Shown here: piece by piece, positions 2,384 to 11,731 of the stretch
Layout: the number at the start of each line of letters is the position of its first letter
Numbering within the stretch: position 1 is the stretch's first letter
From: Providencia sp. PROV188
GTDB lineage: Bacteria > Pseudomonadota > Gammaproteobacteria > Enterobacterales > Enterobacteriaceae
Length of the DNA stretch: 64,000 nt
NCBI RefSeq assembly: GCF_027595165.1
Contig: NZ_CP097291.1
Location: forward strand, 2,790,001 to 2,854,000
Direction: 5' to 3'
The notes under the pieces: model-generated
Seen by the model: only the letters and a program-made list of their open reading frames with translations
Databases searched by the model: none
Told to the model about the DNA's origin: nothing
Program-made: the position numbers and the translations under genes

Positions 2384-2470
2384 AGAAAAAACAACCAAAT
2401 ACATTTTCATGCTCTATACTTTCATTAACATTCATCAAGCCTGACAAATGAAAGGCAGCTGGAGCTAAAC

Positions 2471-3112
2471 ATGAAAATATCGATCCTAGGAGCTACGGGT
2501 TTTGTCGGTAAAGCGTTGGTTTCTGAAGCCTTAATGCGTCATCATCAAGTTACTGCAATTTCTCGTCACAGCAATCAGCTCGCCCAACATGCTCATTTAA
2601 TTGCTGAATCAGGAGATATTACGGATGTGGCATGGCTAACATCCCGGCTTAAAGGTCAAGATGTGGTGCTTAGCGCATTTAATGGAGGATGGAGTAACCC
2701 TAATCTGTACCGCGATACGGTTGCAGGTAACCAAGCAATCTTAGATGCCGTAAAAAGGGCGGGTATAAAACGATTTATTGTAGTTGGTGGTGCCGGCAGT
2801 TTAGAAATCGCCCCTGGTGTTCTATTGCTCGACTCCCCCGATTTTCCAGCCAATATTTGGCCTGGAGCCCAAGCTGTCAAAGAATTTAAAACGACGTTGG
2901 AATCTATCGATAGCTTAGATTGGACATTTGTTTCTCCTGCCGCGATGCTTGAAGATGGCGCTCGGACAGAAACATTTCGCCTTGGTGGAAAACAGCTATT
3001 AATGAATGGCAATACCCCCGCAAAAATATCCGTTCAGGATTTAGCGGTAGCGATATTAGATGAGGTAGAGCGACCACAATTTATTCGTCAGCAGTTTACA
3101 GCTGCATATTAA
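2471..3112 (+). CDS. NAD(P)-binding Rossmann/NmrA-like oxidoreductase
   Basis: A 213-residue single-domain protein. It opens with the glycine-rich dinucleotide motif GATGFVGKAL (residues 7-16) and continues with LSAFNGGW, RFIVVGGAGSLEIAPG and DWTFVSPAA, typical of the NAD(H)-binding atypical SDR group that includes YwnB and NmrA-like reductases. A ribosome-binding site (GGAGCT) lies just upstream of the ATG. The family includes azo/flavin reductase-like and regulatory members, so the substrate cannot be named. It follows the TetR gene by 87 bp and may belong to the same detoxification response. Confidence 0.77.
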   Translation: MKISILGATGFVGKALVSEALMRHHQVTAISRHSNQLAQHAHLIAESGDITDVAWLTSRLKGQDVVLSAFNGGWSNPNLYRDTVAGNQAILDAVKRAGIKRFIVVGGAGSLEIAPGVLLLDSPDFPANIWPGAQAVKEFKTTLESIDSLDWTFVSPAAMLEDGARTETFRLGGKQLLMNGNTPAKISVQDLAVAILDEVERPQFIRQQFTAAY

Positions 3113-3607
3113 TAACAAATGGATTCCGAGTAAATCATGACTAAATGTATCTGTTTATTTGTTTAACATAAAAAGTAATACAATCATTAACGTTTAATGA
3201 ATATTCGTATATTCCCGTATAAAAATATGATTACTCACTTATAAATAATTAAATTAAGATTATCATCATTTAAATAAAGTTAAGTTTAGCTATCAATATA
3301 ATTTAAACTTGTGCGTTATTAATTCATATTGAGACTAGAGTTTTATTTTATTTTTAGGTGCGATGATTTTGATGAGCTTTATGAGATTATTCATAATAGG
3401 CAGTTATTGTATGCAGATATAATCTAAAAGCAGAGTATTAAGCCGGAAGAAACAACCTATAATAGTAAAACAGATAATCTCTTCCGGTCAGACGATTAAA
3501 TTCATGGAGTCCCTTTTATCAAAGCAGGGTCGAAAATAGAGAATTTTTGCTTTCCTAGTGATAGCTAACTATTAAAAACAAATAAAAAACATAACATACT
3601 GATATTT
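3113..3607. other. AT-rich gap with one long-range stem
   Basis: No gene is supported here. The stretch is strongly AT-rich. The only clear structure is CCGGAAGA (3443-3450) and its inverse complement TCTTCCGG (3480-3487), enclosing 29 nt, which could be the base of a small transcript hairpin. No terminator-like T-run follows directly. Confidence 0.4.
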
Positions 3608-3862
3608 TTAATGAAGTGTACTACGAGCGCCACTATTTATGTTCACAACACCATATAAGAATGATGCGGGTTCCAAGTTAAATAAATAGGCAAATTGAAA
3701 AAGTGAATCAACATCAATGCAGCTTTCTCCACTCTCGAAACGATTCATTTCATCTTCAGAAACACCAATTAAATCGGCCGCTTGCTGAATACTCATTTTA
3801 TGACTTTCTCTTTGCATACGGATCTTAATCCCTAGCTTTTTCGCAATTTCATTTTCATTCAT
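3608..3862 (-). CDS. small XRE-family helix-turn-helix regulator
   Basis: An 84-residue protein that is almost entirely a Cro/CI-type HTH: KKLGIKIRMQRESHKMSIQ, then QAADLIGVSEDEMNRFESGE, then a short helical C-terminal extension. I place the start at 3862 because AAGGAG sits 5-6 nt upstream of that ATG; a longer frame to 3895 lacks such a site. The size and the LIGVSEDEMNRFESGE motif resemble MrpJ-like regulators of Proteus and Providencia, which often control fimbriae and motility. No fimbrial gene is next to it. It is flanked on both sides by long AT-rich gaps. Confidence 0.77.
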   Translation of the reverse strand: MNENEIAKKLGIKIRMQRESHKMSIQQAADLIGVSEDEMNRFESGESCIDVDSLFQFAYLFNLEPASFLYGVVNINSGARSTLH

Positions 3863-4833
3863 AAATGCTCCTTTTACTATTAGATTGAATACCAATTATG
3901 AGGGCAGCTAAATTATCATCACACCAAGTTTAATTAATTGACTTATGTTAATAAAATACGACATACATCACATCATTTAGTGACATTCATAAATAGATAT
4001 TTTTCACTTAAAACTGTAATTGGTTGATTTAAATTACAAATAAAACCAATAATCCATGTAATATAAAAATAAAAGCGTGATAGCAATCACATAAAATTCA
4101 GATTAATACCTGTGTATATTTACTTATTATGCCCATCAAATAATGATGCAAAAATTTAATTACTCATTTAATGATGATCTGCAGCATATGGCTATATTAC
4201 AAAATCACAAAAACAATGATCAAGGATTATCTTAACTTTTTTCAAATAATGATAGCTTACGTTTATATACTTAAATTTATTCTTATATTTTAAATCATCT
4301 ACTAATGACATATTCACTTAAACAACATGCAATATCATAATAATAACTGACTAAATCATCTATCACTATCAGAATAATTTTTTATCATTTATTTAACTTT
4401 TCTCAAATAACTTATTTTGTCATACAAAATATGAATATTAATGAATGATGATTGAATTATATTCACACCAACTGAATCGAGTAACCTATTGAATATTTGC
4501 TTTAATTCGATTCATTTGTTAAACGCTTTAATTCTATTTATATGAATAGCATTTTCTTTGCATAAAGACTGAGTTAACAAAAAATGCGTTGTAGACTATC
4601 AAAAAATTCAGCGTATTCCTAATACGTTACCTCTGTTTAATAGCCTAACCAACCATCATTTCGAGTGTAAAAACCCAATTAAAACTTACCTAACTTCACA
4701 TTGCATATAAAAAAATTGCCAGTAGACATGCTATCCTATGTTCAATTACGATGAGTTTTATCTAACTTTAATGCTCAGATTTGGCGCTTACTTAAAAATA
4801 ACGCCTGTTGTAAAAGTAACTGGAAAGGTAACC
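3863..4833. other. long AT-rich intergenic region
   Basis: About 970 bp without a convincing gene. The base composition is extremely AT-rich, with many ATTTAA/TTAAAT words. It separates a leftward XRE gene from a rightward AraC gene, so it must hold both promoters, and H-NS-type silencing is plausible from composition alone. A frame upstream of the AraC start (4738-4833) is open but has no ribosome-binding site. Confidence 0.4.
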
Positions 4834-5718
4834 ATGCTACAAGAAAGTGTTATCAGGGAAATTATTCTCTGGATCGAACAAAATTTAGAGTCACGGCTCT
4901 CCCTTGATACCGTGGCTGATAAATCTGGATACACTAAATGGCACTTTCAACGATTATTTAAAGCCCAAACAGGTCTTGCGTTAGGTGCTTATATTCGCGC
5001 TCGTCGTTTATCCTGCTCTGCGGTTGCTTTACGCTTGACGAGTGATAGCATCATGGATATTTCACTACGCTATCGATTTGATTCACAACAAACTTTTTGC
5101 CGTGCATTCAAGAAACAATTTGGTGTAACGCCTTCAGAATATCGTAAACGCTCAGGCTGGCATATTGAAGGGTTCTGCCTTCCTCTGCGTGAAAGTAAAG
5201 AGCTCGAAGCTCATGTGGAATTAGTTGAGTTGAAAGAGATCCACTTAGTAGGAATGACTCATCGCTACACACAAGGCATTAACGAGTGGAACTTAAAAAC
5301 TGAAGAGTTACGACGCCAGTATTGGAAAAGCTTTTTAGATAAAAACAAGATTGTTGCCAAAAACTTATATGCTATCCACGGGGTTGATAAAAGCTCCGAT
5401 GAAGAAGGCCGCTTCCTCTATTCCACTGCATTTGATGAAAACGATCTTGATGTTATGCCACCATTTACTAAAAAATTGATGGTGCCTGCCGGCAATTATT
5501 TGCAAATTAAATTTATCGGTAACTTACAAGGTACTGACTATAACGACATTATTTATACCGTTTATGGAAAGGTGCTCGCCGAGATGGATATTGCTCGCGG
5601 CTTAGGCGCTGATATAGAACATTATGTTTTAAAATCAACGCCAACTTATGAGGATTTTACTAGTCACCCTCATACTTACATCCAAGAGCTGAATTACTAT
5701 ATTCCTGTGATTACATAA
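4834..5718 (+). CDS. Rob/MarA-like AraC regulator with GyrI-like effector domain
   Basis: Read from the ATG at 4834 (AAAGG 5 nt upstream), the product is 294 residues, close to the length of Rob. The N-terminal part has two AraC-type HTH motifs: LSLDTVADKSGYTKWHFQRL and MDISLRYRFDSQQTFCRAF, with the family signature FGVTPSEYRKR. The C-terminal half (from about residue 115) contains EIHLVGMTHRYTQG and YYIPV, matching the GyrI-like small-molecule-binding domain found in Rob. Such proteins activate efflux and stress genes in response to toxic ligands. It is convergent with the TonB receptor gene and separated from it by a strong hairpin. Whether this is the genome's true rob or a paralogue cannot be told here. 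Confidence 0.8.
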   Translation: MLQESVIREIILWIEQNLESRLSLDTVADKSGYTKWHFQRLFKAQTGLALGAYIRARRLSCSAVALRLTSDSIMDISLRYRFDSQQTFCRAFKKQFGVTPSEYRKRSGWHIEGFCLPLRESKELEAHVELVELKEIHLVGMTHRYTQGINEWNLKTEELRRQYWKSFLDKNKIVAKNLYAIHGVDKSSDEEGRFLYSTAFDENDLDVMPPFTKKLMVPAGNYLQIKFIGNLQGTDYNDIIYTVYGKVLAEMDIARGLGADIEHYVLKSTPTYEDFTSHPHTYIQELNYYIPVIT

Positions 5719-5721
5719 AAA

Positions 5722-5751
5722 CTAACAACCCGCTTTTACACGGGTTGTTAG
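5722..5751 (-). terminator. intrinsic terminator between convergent genes
   Basis: A perfect 11-bp stem, CTAACAACCCG paired with CGGGTTGTTAG, with an 8-nt loop. It is followed on the minus strand by TTTTTATG, so it best ends leftward transcription of the copper receptor gene, but it lies where both convergent genes end. Confidence 0.8.
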
Positions 5752-5772
5752 CTTCATTCAGTACTGAATAAA

Positions 5773-7815
5773 TTAGAACGTGACGTTCAGTTTACCCCAG
5801 AATGTTCGACCTGGCTCATTTACAGGGCTATTGGACGAATAACCAAATCCACTGTTACCCGCTAAGTTCAAGTGCTCACTGTAAGTTTTATCAAACAAGT
5901 TATCAACACCCGCACTCAGTTTTACACTTTCATTAATACGGTATGCAGTATTCATCGAAAATACCGTAAAACCTGCACTTTCGCTGAAGTCTTTTCCAAC
6001 CACGTTACCTTCGTTGATTGCTACGCGATCTTGACGACTCACCATGCGCACCAACCCCGTCGTTGTCCAATCGCCTTTTTCCCACGTTAAACCTAAACGG
6101 CTTTCCAATGGCGGCATTTGAGGCAGTGCACGTCCATCAGTTCTATTTTTCCCCCAAGAATACGCAAGGCTTGCATCGGCTTTCCACTCATCGCTGAGTT
6201 GATAAGCGACGCCCATTTCACCGCCCATGATCATCGCATTGACGTTTTCAACTTGGCTCATTCTGGCGTTAGTTGGGCTATAGCGGAATAAAATAAAATC
6301 ATCAACGCGCCCTACATAAGCAGAAATCCATGCATTGGCTTTATCATCATTGTATTTCGCACCAATATCTAACTGTGTCGTTTTCTCGGTTTTCACATTG
6401 TCGAAAACATTTTTGCTGCCATTCGGACCCATTTTTGGCGAGAATAACTCCCAATAATCTGGGAATCTTTCTGTATACCCTACCCCTGCGTATAACATCA
6501 CTGGCGTTTCAGGTAATGCATGTTCATAGCGAACGAATCCTGCTGGCATGACTGTGTTACGACCGGATGACCCTACATCGGTGTAATTATCCACCAATAC
6601 GCGGTCTAAACGTCCACCACCAATCACCTTACCTTGCTCGCTCGCAGTCCAAGTGACCTCACTGAATACGCCATAATCTTGAAATTCTGCATCTTTTTTC
6701 CAGCTATTATTGCTGTTTTTACGGTGCTTATTGGTCTGCATATCTGCACCAGTACGCAGCTCATAATCACTCCATAACCACGTCCCCATGACTCGACCGC
6801 CCATCGTCTCGCGGTCAACACGCATTTTCATTGGCATATTCATCATCATACCGTGCCCGCCATGGCCACCGCCCATATGCCCACCGCCAGATCCCATTGT
6901 GCTCGTTGGGCTACGCAGTGAATAGTTATCCATAATATGGTCGGCGTAGTTGTAGTAAACATTCCCTTCGATTTTATCGAATACCTCACCGATATTGCTT
7001 TTCTCGAAACGTAATCCTAAGCTTTCACGCTTGAATTGAGAGCCATCCATTCCTCGCCCTGCATATCGCGCTTCACCATCACCTTTCCCTGCGGAAAGCT
7101 CGAGTAATGTGTATTCATCCGGCGTCCAGCCCACTGCAACATCCGCATTCCATTTATCCCATTTAGACGGTACTTTGTTCCCGTTTCCATCTTTATAGTC
7201 ATTAGAGTGAGATTTATTGCCAGTCAGGCGTACATAGCCTTTCTCATTGCCCAAGCTCACATCCGCATTAGCATCCCAACGCTGGTTCGATGCCGTCAAT
7301 GCACTCGCATTACCTTGAATGCCCCCCTCCGTAAAGACAGTTTTTTCACGCTCAAAACGCACCGTTCCCGCCGAGTTTCCAGGTCCCCATAATACGGTTT
7401 GAGGACCTTTCACCATGGTGAGCAAGTCAAAGTTTTCCGGTGAAATATAGGATGTCGGCGCATCCATACGGGAAGGACACGCTCCCAACATTTCACTGTC
7501 ATTCGTCATGATCTTAAGACGAGAACCAAACATGCCACGAAAAACAGGGTCGCCATTTGTTCCACCGTTACGGATTTGGGAAAAACCGGGGATCGTTTTC
7601 AAGTAATCAGAGCCATCACTCGCAGGTACTGGCTGTCTTGGGGTTTTAAGCGATGTTGAAATAGTTAACGGCGAGTCCACTGGCGCGGTGACAATCATCA
7701 CTGAGCTATCGGTGATTGAGCTTTGATTTTCTTCTTTGGCGAAAGTGGATGTTGACGCGATAGCCGAAATCACCAGCGCAGTCATAGGTGCAAATTTAAA
7801 ATTAATTGAGTTCAT
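5773..7815 (-). CDS. oprC: TonB-dependent copper receptor (OprC/NosA-like)
   Basis: A 680-residue outer-membrane receptor. It has a signal peptide ending near STSTFA, a plug domain (VMIVTAPVDSPL, SDYLKTIPGFSQIRNGGTN, FRGMFGSRLKIM), a beta-barrel, and a C-terminal aromatic residue (KLNVTF). The plug and barrel features match the TonB-dependent copper receptor family of OprC/NosA. A striking extracellular-loop candidate near residue 310 is almost all Gly, His and Met (GGGHMGGGHGGHGMMMNMPM), suiting Cu(I)/Cu(II) capture. The gene lies 181 bp downstream of a DUF2946 gene on the same strand, the usual partner of such receptors. The function is well supported by family; metal specificity is inferred. 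Confidence 0.85.
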   Translation of the reverse strand: MNSINFKFAPMTALVISAIASTSTFAKEENQSSITDSSVMIVTAPVDSPLTISTSLKTPRQPVPASDGSDYLKTIPGFSQIRNGGTNGDPVFRGMFGSRLKIMTNDSEMLGACPSRMDAPTSYISPENFDLLTMVKGPQTVLWGPGNSAGTVRFEREKTVFTEGGIQGNASALTASNQRWDANADVSLGNEKGYVRLTGNKSHSNDYKDGNGNKVPSKWDKWNADVAVGWTPDEYTLLELSAGKGDGEARYAGRGMDGSQFKRESLGLRFEKSNIGEVFDKIEGNVYYNYADHIMDNYSLRSPTSTMGSGGGHMGGGHGGHGMMMNMPMKMRVDRETMGGRVMGTWLWSDYELRTGADMQTNKHRKNSNNSWKKDAEFQDYGVFSEVTWTASEQGKVIGGGRLDRVLVDNYTDVGSSGRNTVMPAGFVRYEHALPETPVMLYAGVGYTERFPDYWELFSPKMGPNGSKNVFDNVKTEKTTQLDIGAKYNDDKANAWISAYVGRVDDFILFRYSPTNARMSQVENVNAMIMGGEMGVAYQLSDEWKADASLAYSWGKNRTDGRALPQMPPLESRLGLTWEKGDWTTTGLVRMVSRQDRVAINEGNVVGKDFSESAGFTVFSMNTAYRINESVKLSAGVDNLFDKTYSEHLNLAGNSGFGYSSNSPVNEPGRTFWGKLNVTF

Positions 7816-7996
7816 TTTTAGCCTATTTTTATCTGTTTCTTACTGCTATTAACTCAAGGAGTTAATGACCACTCAGCTTCTTTTGAAAAACAGCCTAGCC
7901 TCCTGAAAATGAAGCTAAATTTCAGGATAAGCGAAGTGGTTTTGTCCATTGAAGACAAAATGCAGTTTTAAATTACGTTAAATAAAGAAATAAGAA

Positions 7997-8425
7997 TCAA
8001 TAGGATGTCGGTGGTGCTCGAGCTAGCTGTAATGACCAAGGACGGAAAATTCGTAATTGAATACAACGTTCGAAAGGAACAAAGATAGCGAGGGTTGCTA
8101 ATTGGCGGATCACCGCAGCAACAAATAAAATCAAAAATGGGAAGTGAACAAGTAGTTGGCAGTAACCACACGCGATGTCTTCCATCGGTGATTGCCCGAT
8201 TCCCGTCATCAGCATATGGTTCATCGCACCGCCATCTTCGCAATGTTCAGACAATGGCATTTCTTGATGCTGCTGCATCGAATGCTCCGCCATTTCCCCA
8301 TGCCCCATCGAGCAGTTGTTCATATGTGACATTGATTTTGAAATCAATGGCGCAACGAACAGCATCGCAACAGCGAGTAAGGCAAGGTAAGCGGCAAATT
8401 GTCGAATCGCGTGACGTAAATGCAA
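7997..8425 (-). CDS. DUF2946 family membrane-anchored Met/His-rich protein
   Basis: A 142-residue protein. An N-terminal hydrophobic segment (about residues 10-30, FAAYLALLAVAMLFVAPLIS) is followed by a periplasmic-type stretch rich in Met, His and Cys (SMSHMNNCSMGHGEMAEHSM, then EHCEDGGAMNHM and IACGYCQLL), and a second hydrophobic segment. DUF2946 proteins are commonly encoded beside copper receptors. The Met/His clusters are typical copper ligands, so a copper-handling role with the adjacent receptor is inferred. No biochemical role is established for this family that I can name. Confidence 0.75.
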   Translation of the reverse strand: MHLRHAIRQFAAYLALLAVAMLFVAPLISKSMSHMNNCSMGHGEMAEHSMQQHQEMPLSEHCEDGGAMNHMLMTGIGQSPMEDIACGYCQLLVHFPFLILFVAAVIRQLATLAIFVPFERCIQLRIFRPWSLQLARAPPTSY

Positions 8426-8604
8426 CGGTTTTCCGGTGTTTCATAGCCTATAGATGGGCGCAGATTGTATCTTAATAAGAGGCTTAATGTTATTGTTTTT
8501 TGGCATTATTGTTAAGGCAAAATGCAGCTCGCAAGCCTGACAAAAAAACTAACTAACTTGGGTTAAGCAATACAGAGTTAATTAATATTGGTAAAATGTA
8601 CCCG

Positions 8605-9483
8605 TTAGTTTTTCTTCTTCAAAAAGACTAAAGCGACACTAGTAAAAATCAAAACCATTCCAATCAACATATTCACGTTTATTGCTTCACCTAAGTAGTA
8701 ATACGAAATAAGCACACTCATCATCGGTGAAATAAGAATCGAATAAGACGATAGTTCAGCCCCGCCATTATCAATCATGTAAAACCATAAAATGTAAACT
8801 AATACCCCATTTGCTACACCGATAAAAATCACGGGAATCAGCAATTCCATCATCAATCTATGGTAACTCAATCCATAGCTTGTCAGATCTAAATTGACAG
8901 ATAGAAACATCGTAAAAATCAATATAATCAAAAATGAAGTGATATTTTGATAAAGCACCTTTGAAAAAACATCAACGCTGACGGCAACGTGTCCTGATAG
9001 AAAGGTTCCTAGCGCCCATGCAAATGCACTCAACAATATAATCACTTCACCATAGCTCATCGCATCAAATGAGGTAAAAAACAGAATTCCAAGCCCACAA
9101 AGTACCGAGACAACCAACGAGTTCAAGATTATCTTCCGCTGGCTTATCATCACAAAGCAAGACGTTATCGCTGGCATGGTATAGACCAATACCGATGCCT
9201 TAACGGAGTCCGTAAATTGGAGCGCAATGTTGTTTAATATTGGCACGAGGAACATATTTAAAATGCCAAGAGGAATGCAACGAATAAAATGACTCACTAT
9301 AAATTGCTTTTTGTATATAAAGAAAAATACAAATAACAGCACCAGCAAAGCTATCAATGCGGAATAGAATCGGAATACCCATGCCCCAACAATTCCAATA
9401 CCGATTTTCGAGATCGGAAACCCCATCCCCCACAGTATAGATATTATCGCTGCAAATATAATGACCGTATTTTTATGCGTCAT
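8605..9483 (-). CDS. EamA-family transporter, PaaC-like exporter/self-resistance of the RiPP cluster
   Basis: A 292-residue membrane protein with about ten hydrophobic helices in two homologous halves, the EamA (DMT superfamily) layout. I start it at the ATG at 9483, inside the end of the upstream oxygenase gene (11-nt overlap); the longer open frame to 9522 would begin deep inside that gene. It is the last gene of the four-gene cluster. In pantocin A biosynthesis a membrane protein at this place is thought to export the product and protect the producer, which I infer here. Like its cluster neighbours it is visibly more AT-rich than the nap/ccm genes. Confidence 0.78.
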   Translation of the reverse strand: MTHKNTVIIFAAIISILWGMGFPISKIGIGIVGAWVFRFYSALIALLVLLFVFFFIYKKQFIVSHFIRCIPLGILNMFLVPILNNIALQFTDSVKASVLVYTMPAITSCFVMISQRKIILNSLVVSVLCGLGILFFTSFDAMSYGEVIILLSAFAWALGTFLSGHVAVSVDVFSKVLYQNITSFLIILIFTMFLSVNLDLTSYGLSYHRLMMELLIPVIFIGVANGVLVYILWFYMIDNGGAELSSYSILISPMMSVLISYYYLGEAINVNMLIGMVLIFTSVALVFLKKKN

Positions 9484-10156
9484 ATCGAGCAACCACCGCC
9501 ATTCTTTTAGAGCCTCTAACACCTACCGAACTCACCATTGAGACAAAATGGGGAATGCTTTTTTCTCCCGTATCAATAATTAATGTACTCAAATACGTTG
9601 GTACTAATGCTTCTATGATGTTTTCTTTCTGTTTATCCAAAATAAAAGTCAAGCCACCATGGTTATGTTCCCAACCTTTCGTAAAGTTAATGACAATATT
9701 AATGCAGGAACCTGAATCGCAGTGTGTGGTTAGGAAATCCCCTAAATCAAACCAGCTTAAATAACATAGCGATAATGTATTGATACTTTTTTTCGTTATT
9801 TCAGACAGAAAGGATTTGAATTCTGTGCTATCTAAAAAGGTCTTAATCGCTAAAAAAGATGACACTGACTTTCTTTGTTGGTTATCAGTTATTCGCCTAA
9901 ATGAATAGCAAAAATTCCCTTGGTGATATTCTTGTAGTGCTTTTTCTCTTTCTTGTTCTATCTCAAGCTTAGAGTGCTTATTTTTATAGTAATCCACTGG
10001 AGCAAATTTATTTTTTATAATAAATGACCATTCAGCATCATTAATATCAAGAAAATCATCATAAAATTTATCTAACTCTGAAAAGTATTGTTCCATAGGA
10101 AACTGAACATATCCTTTGTTATTAAAACTATTAGTTAACTTATGAATTTCCCTCAC
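9473..10156 (-). CDS. 2OG-Fe(II) oxygenase, PaaB-like RiPP tailoring enzyme
   Basis: A 227-residue protein carrying the facial triad of 2-oxoglutarate/Fe(II) oxygenases: H145 and D147 in TTHCDSG, and H203 in SIPHFVSMVSSV. H166-GGL follows the HxD motif as in prolyl-hydroxylase-type enzymes, and R218 is placed to bind the 2OG carboxylate. The start is a GTG overlapping the stop of the adenylation gene (GTGA), with GGAG 6 nt upstream, so the two are translationally coupled. Its expected role is oxidation of the peptide-derived bicycle, as proposed for the matching enzyme in the pantocin A pathway. The exact reaction is inference. Confidence 0.78.
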   Translation of the reverse strand: MREIHKLTNSFNNKGYVQFPMEQYFSELDKFYDDFLDINDAEWSFIIKNKFAPVDYYKNKHSKLEIEQEREKALQEYHQGNFCYSFRRITDNQQRKSVSSFLAIKTFLDSTEFKSFLSEITKKSINTLSLCYLSWFDLGDFLTTHCDSGSCINIVINFTKGWEHNHGGLTFILDKQKENIIEALVPTYLSTLIIDTGEKSIPHFVSMVSSVGVRGSKRMAVVARYDA

Positions 10157-11268
10157 AAAAGCTCCTCAGTCATTTTAAAGTCTCTTAGCGAAAAGAATAT
10201 TTTCCTATTTTTCAATACCACATCATCATAGCCAGTAATTAACTTAACAATTTGGTCTGTTACTAATCCTGACATGACCGCAAGAGATGGCGTACTTTGC
10301 CAAGCGTTTACTTTTCTCTTGCCATTTAAAAACTGGTGTTTCATTCTTGCTAATTGAAATTTTTCAACTTCATGATTCTGGCTATAGAATTTATTTCTAA
10401 TATTATTTTTTACCGCATGATAGCCTGAATTGTACCCATCATTTAAATAAATAGGTCCAACTGAAATGTCTAAAGGATCTCCCCCCAATTCAATTATCGA
10501 TATTTCTTTTTCATGGGCGATATCATGAATAACACCTTCAACTGTATTTTTTCTAAAATAACCTAAACTAGCCCATGCAATTAAAATGACATCTACGCCA
10601 TCTAAAACTTCCATCAACCGATCTCTATCTATCGTTGCAAACTCATTGTACTTCTCAACCTTGGTATATCTATTATGCCGTTTAATACCTATTTCAGCAG
10701 CTTCAACTTTTGCGCTTCCAATATCATCAAAAGTATAAAGAACTTGTCTATTTAAGTTAGAAAGCTCAACCACATCACCGTCTACCAACCTCAATGTGCC
10801 TATACCTAACATAGCTAACTGCATTGCGCACCACGTACCCCATCCTCCCATACCTAGAATCAAAACTCGGCTATTTTTGAGCTTTTCTTGGTACTTTAAA
10901 CCACCTACTTTTTGGCTATCAATTAACGAAAATTGTAATAACTGCCTATCATATAAATTTATTTCTTGTTGACTAAGAATATCCGAATAAGTATCTGAAA
11001 TTTCAATGACGCCTAACTGATTAAGCTTATTAATAAACTCAATAATACATTCTTTATCAACGTTAAATCCTAAAGATTTCAATTCCTTTACTATTCTGGG
11101 AATAGTATGCTCTCCATCAAGTTTGGGTAATAACGATAGCACCCACCCTTCCGGACTTTTAATAATACAACCCTTTTGAGGTATTTCCCCTATGCAAATA
11201 TCGCCATCATCAGATATTAAAATATGATGTGAGCATTTAATTAATGGTTTTAGTAGCGAAAAATCCAT
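10153..11268 (-). CDS. ThiF/MccB-like peptide-adenylating enzyme, PaaA-like
   Basis: A 371-residue E1-like enzyme. Residues about 1-95 form a small winged-helix-like domain of the type that recognises RiPP leader peptides. The ThiF domain follows, with the nucleotide loop GMGGWG (139-144), the strand VDGDVVELSNLNRQ (162-175) and the conserved GSAK lysine (K187). No CxxC zinc tetrad and no obvious transfer cysteine are seen, which fits activation of a peptide carboxylate rather than sulfur transfer. No YcaO partner is present. In pantocin A biosynthesis PaaA activates and cyclises two adjacent glutamates of its precursor; the adjacent precursor here has such a Glu-Glu-Asn. GGAGG lies 7 nt before the ATG. 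Confidence 0.83.
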   Translation of the reverse strand: MDFSLLKPLIKCSHHILISDDGDICIGEIPQKGCIIKSPEGWVLSLLPKLDGEHTIPRIVKELKSLGFNVDKECIIEFINKLNQLGVIEISDTYSDILSQQEINLYDRQLLQFSLIDSQKVGGLKYQEKLKNSRVLILGMGGWGTWCAMQLAMLGIGTLRLVDGDVVELSNLNRQVLYTFDDIGSAKVEAAEIGIKRHNRYTKVEKYNEFATIDRDRLMEVLDGVDVILIAWASLGYFRKNTVEGVIHDIAHEKEISIIELGGDPLDISVGPIYLNDGYNSGYHAVKNNIRNKFYSQNHEVEKFQLARMKHQFLNGKRKVNAWQSTPSLAVMSGLVTDQIVKLITGYDDVVLKNRKIFFSLRDFKMTEELL

Positions 11269-11282
11269 ATTTAGCCTCCATT

Positions 11283-11312
11283 AAGAAAAGCCGCAATTAG
11301 CGGCTATTCAAT
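11283..11312 (-). terminator. attenuator-like hairpin between precursor and adenylation genes
   Basis: On the minus strand the sequence AGCCGC-TAATT-GCGGCT forms a GC-rich stem followed by TTTTC. It lies between the 29-codon precursor gene and the adenylating enzyme gene. Such a weak terminator would make precursor mRNA more abundant than enzyme mRNA, a common arrangement in RiPP operons. Confidence 0.55.
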
Positions 11313-11320
11313 ATAACTTA

Positions 11321-11410
11321 TTATTCTAATTCGATAGATTCATCTTCGTTGTACATCGCATTTTCTTCATTAATAGCAGAAACACGTTCATTAAGAATGA
11401 CAAATTCCAT
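11321..11410 (-). CDS. 29-residue RiPP precursor peptide with Glu-Glu-Asn core (PaaP-like)
   Basis: A short gene below usual calling limits. AGGTGA sits 5 nt before its ATG (11410), and it ends with TAA at 11321. The product is 29 residues: it begins MEFVILNERVS, has the core AINEENAMY with Glu15-Glu16-Asn17, and ends ESIELE. It is highly acidic after residue 14 and contains no Cys. The pantocin A precursor PaaP is a peptide of about 30 residues whose central Glu-Glu-Asn becomes the bicyclic antibiotic. Length, core position and downstream gene order agree, so I call it the precursor of a pantocin A-like compound. It has its own promoter and is followed by an attenuator-like hairpin. Confidence 0.82.
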   Translation of the reverse strand: MEFVILNERVSAINEENAMYNEDESIELE

Positions 11411-11464
11411 AAAGATCACCTCATGTGTTATTTAAGATAAAGTTTCAACAAACTACGCATTAAA

Positions 11465-11492
11465 ATTAATTAACAAAATAGCATGCTGTCAA
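11465..11492 (-). promoter_or_regulatory. candidate sigma-70 promoter of the RiPP cluster
   Basis: On the minus strand a perfect -35 TTGACA (11492-11487) is followed after 16 nt by ATTAAT (11470-11465, four of six matches to TATAAT). Transcription would start about 48 nt before the precursor ATG. No regulator gene lies beside the cluster. Confidence 0.45.
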
Positions 11493-11731
11493 CATTTATT
11501 TAAGAAATGAAAAACATAGATATATAAACATCTATTTATATATAGAATCATTTATATCAGTCACTCTAGTAAATTACTTAATGCTTTGATAATAAATAGA
11601 TTTAAATAACAATCATAATAAATCAATAAAATACAGACGCTTTTTTATAATAGAACATCTAAATAATATAATTTTAAAAAACCATTTAGTTTTAAAAGAA
11701 CGCCAATACTACATTGCATCCTTATATCAAA
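11493..11731. other. AT-rich gap upstream of the RiPP cluster
   Basis: Apart from the promoter at 11465-11492 nothing gene-like is seen between the precursor and the ccm terminator. The DNA is very AT-rich and contains TATATA-type repeats (around 11520-11550). Confidence 0.35.

Follow-up and report, generated by a model that had tools for sequence, protein, structure and literature searches.

A pantocin A-family cluster on a Providencia chromosome

Does the chromosome of Providencia sp. PROV188 encode a pathway for the antibiotic pantocin A, and would its product be pantocin A itself or some other molecule? The question is raised by four genes on the minus strand (11410-8605) of a 64,000-nucleotide stretch of that chromosome (NZ_CP097291.1, positions 2,790,001 to 2,854,000; hereafter the window, whose numbering is used throughout). 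Judged from its sequence, the locus is a genuine pantocin A-family cluster, real and intact, and it very probably makes pantocin A or something nearly identical. The reading that we hold with high confidence is that of a complete, intact and horizontally acquired pantocin A cluster with pantocin A as its predicted product. The cluster itself is a member of a known family, and its main scientific interest lies in the comparison across clusters.

The genes run in the order precursor, PaaA-like enzyme, 2-oxoglutarate (2OG)-Fe(II) oxygenase and EamA exporter, and all four frames are open. A first-pass annotation, made from the letters alone, had proposed the pantocin A order paaP-paaA-paaB-paaC with the same core tripeptide, consisting of a 29-residue precursor with Glu-Glu-Asn at positions 15-17 behind the ribosome-binding site GAGGTGA, a ThiF/MccB-like enzyme with a leader-recognition-like domain, an oxygenase with an intact HxD...H triad, and an EamA exporter. 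Searches with domain models, a solved structure and a predicted fold bore out all of these assignments. Its description of the genes as all coupled held for paaA, paaB and paaC, where the GTG start of paaB overlaps the paaA stop as GTGA and the paaC start overlaps the end of paaB, but not for paaP, which stands 52 nt away from paaA with a terminator-like hairpin in between. A search of genomes for the four-gene order, also proposed there, found it in records of Pantoea, Enterobacter, Edwardsiella, Shewanella, Sinorhizobium and Vibrio. Coordinates are collected in Table 1.

The precursor peptide, MEFVILNERVSAINEENAMYNEDESIELE, divides into a leader (residues 1-14) carrying FxxLxxRV, the core Glu15-Glu16-Asn17, and a follower (18-29). 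It matches all 29 of 29 positions of the NCBIfam model TIGR04310 (E 1.7e-13) with a score above the cut-off of that pantocin A model. The FxxLxxRI leader motif, which PaaA requires together with the follower (PMC12250964, a review cited here and below from the part available), is matched at F3, L6, R9 and V10, with Val replacing Ile. The first-pass annotation had called the precursor unannotated, but besides that NCBI model recognising it, relatives of it are labelled 'pantocin A family RiPP' in one Sinorhizobium and one Vibrio plasmid record; a second Sinorhizobium record has no such row in its annotation table, which is incomplete.

The adenylating enzyme combines a PaaA-like_N domain (PF21475, E 2.7e-23) with a ThiF domain (PF00899), and aligns with the solved PaaA structure 5ff5 from residue 3 to 369 in both proteins (367 residues). 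The homology is thus of full length, beyond the generic ThiF fold to which the first-pass annotation had allowed that the resemblance might be confined. R174 and K187 are present at identical numbers; PaaA activity is impaired or abolished when these residues are lost (PMC12250964). In the oxygenase, the Fe triad H145, D147 and H203 is invariant in 21/21 aligned PaaB sequences, the window's included; PF13661 is matched by 19 of these 21 at E up to 0.001, and the predicted fold of the window protein (mean predicted local distance difference test score 91.7) resembles 2OG oxygenases such as OGFOD1 and PolD. Its nearest named relative outside its own cluster is from P. alcalifaciens (88% identity). 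An alternative in-frame GTG start for paaC is possible at 9522.

By the TIGR04310, PaaA-like_N and 5ff5 scores, the similarity of this cluster to the pantocin A family is far beyond chance. With paaPABC of Pantoea agglomerans Eh318 (5ff5; TIGR04310, PF21475) it shares the gene order, the Glu-Glu-Asn core, the recognition motif, a PaaA homologous over its full length with its RiPP recognition element (RRE), ThiF domain and R174/K187, a 2OG oxygenase with its Fe triad, and an EamA exporter. It differs in lying on a Providencia chromosome at another site, in a PaaA that falls in a separate Morganellaceae clade, in its sequence identity to the Pantoea brenneri proteins (PaaA about 54%, PaaB and PaaC about 33%), and in an acidic follower, AMYNEDESIELE, where the Pantoea type has AMYTKGQVIVLS.

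Table 1. Features of the window and of related loci (locus label given where the coordinates are not those of the window).
Feature	Coordinates	Strand	Basis or remark
TTGACA, tentative candidate -35 element	11487..11492	-	82 nt upstream of paaP start
paaP ribosome-binding site GAGGTGA	11416..11422	-	read from sequence; 5 nt upstream of ATG start
paaP, 29-residue precursor	11321..11410	-	TIGR04310 pantocin_A_pre 49.5 bits, cut-off 35
Terminator-like hairpin, candidate attenuator	11289..11305	-	region scan: 3 such sites found vs 1.7 expected
paaA, RRE-containing ThiF-like adenylating enzyme, 371 aa	10153..11268	-	PF21475, PF00899; 5ff5 1.2e-133
paaB, 2OG-Fe(II) oxygenase, 227 aa, GTG start	9473..10156	-	Fe triad, predicted fold
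paaC, EamA-family exporter, 292 aa	8605..9483	-	PF00892 3.2e-30; ATG start computed
Low-GC insert with whole cluster, between ccmH and DUF2946 gene	8517..11728	.	flank alignments; GC 33.2%
M32 carboxypeptidase, P. burhodogranariea	L050 7441..6017	-	PF02074 1.1e-115
M32 carboxypeptidase, three Photorhabdus species	L009, L010, L011 8657..10093		

Predicted biosynthesis and product

In the formation of pantocin A the leader and follower leave no trace, and only the core tripeptide should reach the product. Because the residues flanking the core are leader and follower and lie outside the product, pantocin A itself is predicted here; the suggestion in the first-pass annotation that they give room for a distinct product or target range was not borne out.

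In the pathway that we propose, the hairpin behind paaP would end many transcripts, so that PaaP would be made in excess, and the N-terminal recognition domain of PaaA would bind the FxxLxxR(V) leader, as shown for the Pantoea enzyme. That enzyme modifies E16 first and then E17, with decarboxylation (PMC12250964). By the same route the window enzyme would adenylate Glu15 and then Glu16, giving a decarboxylated bicyclic core. PaaB would dehydrogenate this core to a conjugated olefin, a step that is presumed in the literature also, host proteases would remove leader and follower, and PaaC, which confers resistance in E. coli (PMC12250964), would export the product and protect the host. The product would be pantocin A, blocking histidine biosynthesis in competitors.

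Several features weigh against this reading. The cluster holds no gene for a leader or follower protease; the branch of the PaaA lineage is long (0.65 changes per site), and the lineage departs at 5 of 121 otherwise fixed places; PaaB scores under the Pfam cut-off for 2OG oxygenases (22.9 vs 27); PaaB and PaaC have only the low identity to their Pantoea brenneri counterparts given above; and the leader has Val where Pantoea PaaP has Ile. Departures from otherwise fixed PaaA residues also occur elsewhere, in Morganella P0016 (8/125) and Shewanella (4/120). The divergent PaaB, the long PaaA branch and the missing protease could all be expected if drifted enzymes turn the same Glu-Glu-Asn into a pantocin-like molecule distinct from pantocin A, for instance by another PaaB oxidation or other trimming of the ends. 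This we consider improbable, as the core is identical and the catalytic residues are kept, and since PaaB differs greatly among all members of the family (31-88% identity to the window's), its divergence here is not special.

A silent or decaying remnant that produces nothing, like the clusters in G008 and G012, is very improbable. Broken clusters do occur in two of the five Providencia genomes with a precursor, and PaaA is found in only four of the 24 genomes of the genus, but none of the four frames is interrupted in the window or in G003, the sister genome, and the proteins of the two are 90-97% identical.

That the locus is instead a microcin C-like peptide-nucleotide cluster, its ThiF-like protein being an MccB that attaches adenosine monophosphate to a C-terminal Asn, has a vanishingly small likelihood: MccB chains do match (6om4, 9.6e-15), and the short precursor, the terminator and the ThiF-like enzyme with a recognition domain, in a precursor-hairpin-enzyme layout, resemble mccA-mccB (PMC6495379, in the part available), but the match to PaaA 5ff5 is far stronger, a PaaA-like N-terminal domain is present, the chemistry differs, and the microcin C precursor is a heptapeptide with a terminal Asn (for mccA see PMC12250964), whereas PaaP has 29 residues and an internal Asn at 17.

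The third core residue varies across the family

We compared 16 clusters (the window, L009-L011, L013-L017, L049-L051, L060, L061, L068 and L070), which are not independent, as they include three from Photorhabdus, two from Sinorhizobium and so on. L012, which repeats L050, L018 and L052, which repeat L015, and L105, with an Asn core and a precursor identical to that of L061, were left uncounted, and G901 (L069, with a PaaA-like protein at 39%) was left out for want of a recognisable precursor. The first-pass annotation had named relatives without a conserved Glu-Glu-Asn as a result that would tell against it. The comparison goes partly that way: the Glu-Glu pair is invariant in all 16, but Asn is the third residue in only seven, the others having Lys (5), Ile (2) or Asp (2); replacement of Asn by Lys, Ile or Asp in pantocin-like clusters has already been reported (PMC12250964). 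Providencia alone spans three of the four core types (N, K and I), and in the Providencia and Photorhabdus clusters the codons are AAT for Asn, AAA for Lys and ATT for Ile. The Lys-core clusters of Photorhabdus and Providencia burhodogranariea have a leader and follower similar to the window's, and their PaaA (65%) is among the closest after that of the sister genome (97%); they differ in their Glu-Glu-Lys core and in a fifth gene, described below.

In the PaaA tree the window falls inside a Morganellaceae clade (support 100/99) with the Lys and Ile types, apart from the Asn clade of Pantoea, Vibrio and Shewanella. A second tree omitted P0074, P0116, P0083, P0037, P0050 and P0008, all among the nine long-branch rows of the first. 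The Asn core of the window may be either regained or ancestral: the tree requires two changes of the Asn label, but an arrangement in which the other Morganellaceae form a single clade that excludes the window is not rejected by an approximately unbiased test (p 0.082), and the window leader retains the SAI motif of outside lineages.

One PaaA position tracks the core. In the 15 clusters for which both it and the core are known, residue 311 is His where the core has Asn, Gln where it has Lys or Ile, and Asn where it has Asp, although these clusters represent very few independent lineages. It lies between two adenylation-domain segments named by the review, 100-281 and 321-371 (PMC12250964), and the link to the core residue is a lead only. 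P0008, outside the 15 clusters counted, also has His at this column. A wider specificity code of convergent PaaA residues was looked for and set aside as not striking: the 8 rows of the Asn clade and the 19 Morganellaceae rows are each fixed, but for different residues, at 15 columns, and the window sides with the former in 2 of these and with the latter in 13.

A carboxypeptidase gene accompanies the Lys core

A gene for an M32 (Taq) carboxypeptidase follows paaC in 4/4 Lys-core clusters for which downstream DNA was available and is absent from the stretches fetched for 11 others, the window included; the fifth Lys-core cluster (Photobacterium, L017) ends at a contig end and is outside this count. 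The junction with paaC is an ATGA overlap in Photorhabdus and a two-base spacing in P. burhodogranariea, and each protein has an HExGH motif. Among the 24 Providencia genomes only the Lys-core one has the gene. The enzyme is a candidate follower protease or immunity enzyme and a concrete lead on the gap in the pathway, but as the four carriers represent two genera of one clade, the tie to the Lys core may reflect common descent. No link between an M32 carboxypeptidase and pantocin was found in the available part of PMC10885120, which does not prove such a link unreported.

These observations can be joined in a scenario that we regard as rather unlikely, in which the Morganellaceae pantocin family embodies a one-residue product switch, made by steps between neighbouring codons and accompanied by matching accessory parts. 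Lys-core clusters would have recruited the carboxypeptidase, either to trim the follower or, as self-immunity, to clip the product Lys, and the window lineage would have passed from a Lys-type ancestor back to Asn, lost the peptidase and regained His311.

A recurrent hairpin behind the precursor gene

A stable hairpin lies between the precursor gene and paaA in 15 of the 16 clusters, that of the Pantoea brenneri record (L013) among them, with stem sequences that differ between lineages. The exception is G008, where the paaP stop adjoins the inside of paaA. For the window, the whole paaP-paaA gap gives z -2.30 (6/200 shuffles as stable) and a 30-nt segment taken from around the hairpin z -3.86, and the hairpin itself is equalled by 5/300 shuffles and 4/264 windows of the same length. 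In 13 of the 15 clusters with the hairpin, its stability is matched by fewer than 10 of 264 equally long windows from the cluster concerned; the two weaker cases are V. maritimus (14/264) and Photobacterium (27/95). The terminator T-run was scored in the window only; elsewhere it varies by eye, with no clear one in G012. In microcin C of E. coli a terminator at the equivalent place is tied to precursor excess (PMC6495379), and by this parallel we infer that the hairpin behind paaP may set an excess of PaaP, a lead on how precursor dosage could be controlled.

Upstream of paaP, one of the hexamers TTGACA, TTGACT and TTGACG occurs within 130 nt of the start in 14/16 clusters, at varying distance and with no control behind the count. 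A general promoter scan found 18 sites against 16.8 expected, which is no excess, and the TTGACA in Table 1 is absent from its list.

Probable transfer and distribution

The cluster occupies a sharply bounded low-GC (guanine plus cytosine) insert, with paaA at 33.9% and the adjacent ccmH at 47.3%. In the three closest relatives without the cluster (G022, G002 and G023) alignment to the window stops at 8515/8516 and resumes from 11729, with long flanks 92.5-95.1% identical, and the site measures 94-96 bp, compared with 3212 bp in the window; the cluster is absent from the site in all seven relatives fetched there (L053-L059). The low GC and the sharp 3.2-kb insert, together with the empty sites in closest relatives, speak for gain by transfer, and the first-pass annotation, which had suggested transfer from GC lower than that of the ccm genes, is upheld on this point. 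G003, the sister genome, has its cluster at this site too (93.4% identity over 10 kb; PaaP 97%, PaaA 97%, PaaB 90%, PaaC 96%).

No transposon end or repeat family was found at the insert: apart from matches of 16-37 bases at E 0.09 or worse, neither non-coding flank has a second copy in its own genome. A search of phages with an E limit of 1e-20 gave no PaaA relative, nor did a scan of viral contigs sensitive to close relatives only, and the cluster DNA had no match in E. coli genomes.

Within Providencia, PaaA occurs in 4/24 genomes and the precursor in 5/24, at three different sites; a precursor search of 197 genomes, including all 24 of Providencia, found no further carriers. Beyond the genus the PaaA domain is rare, being present in 2/392 sampled genomes of the family, 1/394 of the order and 2/369 of the class, three figures that all include the window's own genome, and in 2/296 genomes of the family to which the Photobacterium genome belongs. 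A 2024 blastn survey reported pantocin A from Pantoea, Dickeya, Edwardsiella and unnamed Pectobacteriaceae, and its available part does not name Providencia (PMC11350110); our literature search, which covered parts of the sources, found no report of pantocin in Providencia or Photorhabdus. The window extends a Pantoea biocontrol antibiotic to a host that the survey, so far as available, does not name.

The gap between ccmH and the DUF2946 gene is a variable spot, holding the pantocin cluster in G000 and G003, another gene set in G007 and G018, and some 95 bp in those relatives that are closest. The other set comprises phosphotriesterase-like, ribokinase-like and transporter genes, named by eye (L058, about 2400-7160; L059, about 3600-8800). 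The two Ile-core Providencia clusters (L068, about 9534..7179; L049, about 10217..7445) share one site and are both broken; in G008 paaA matches from residue 129 only and paaC is split over two frames, and in G012 paaB is spread over several frames. In another gammaproteobacterial family, the distant PaaA-like enzyme (39%) of L069 (7914..9754, plus strand), which has no recognisable pantocin precursor beside it, is flanked upstream by a gene that by eye looks LuxR-like and downstream by an uncharacterised one of 210 residues.

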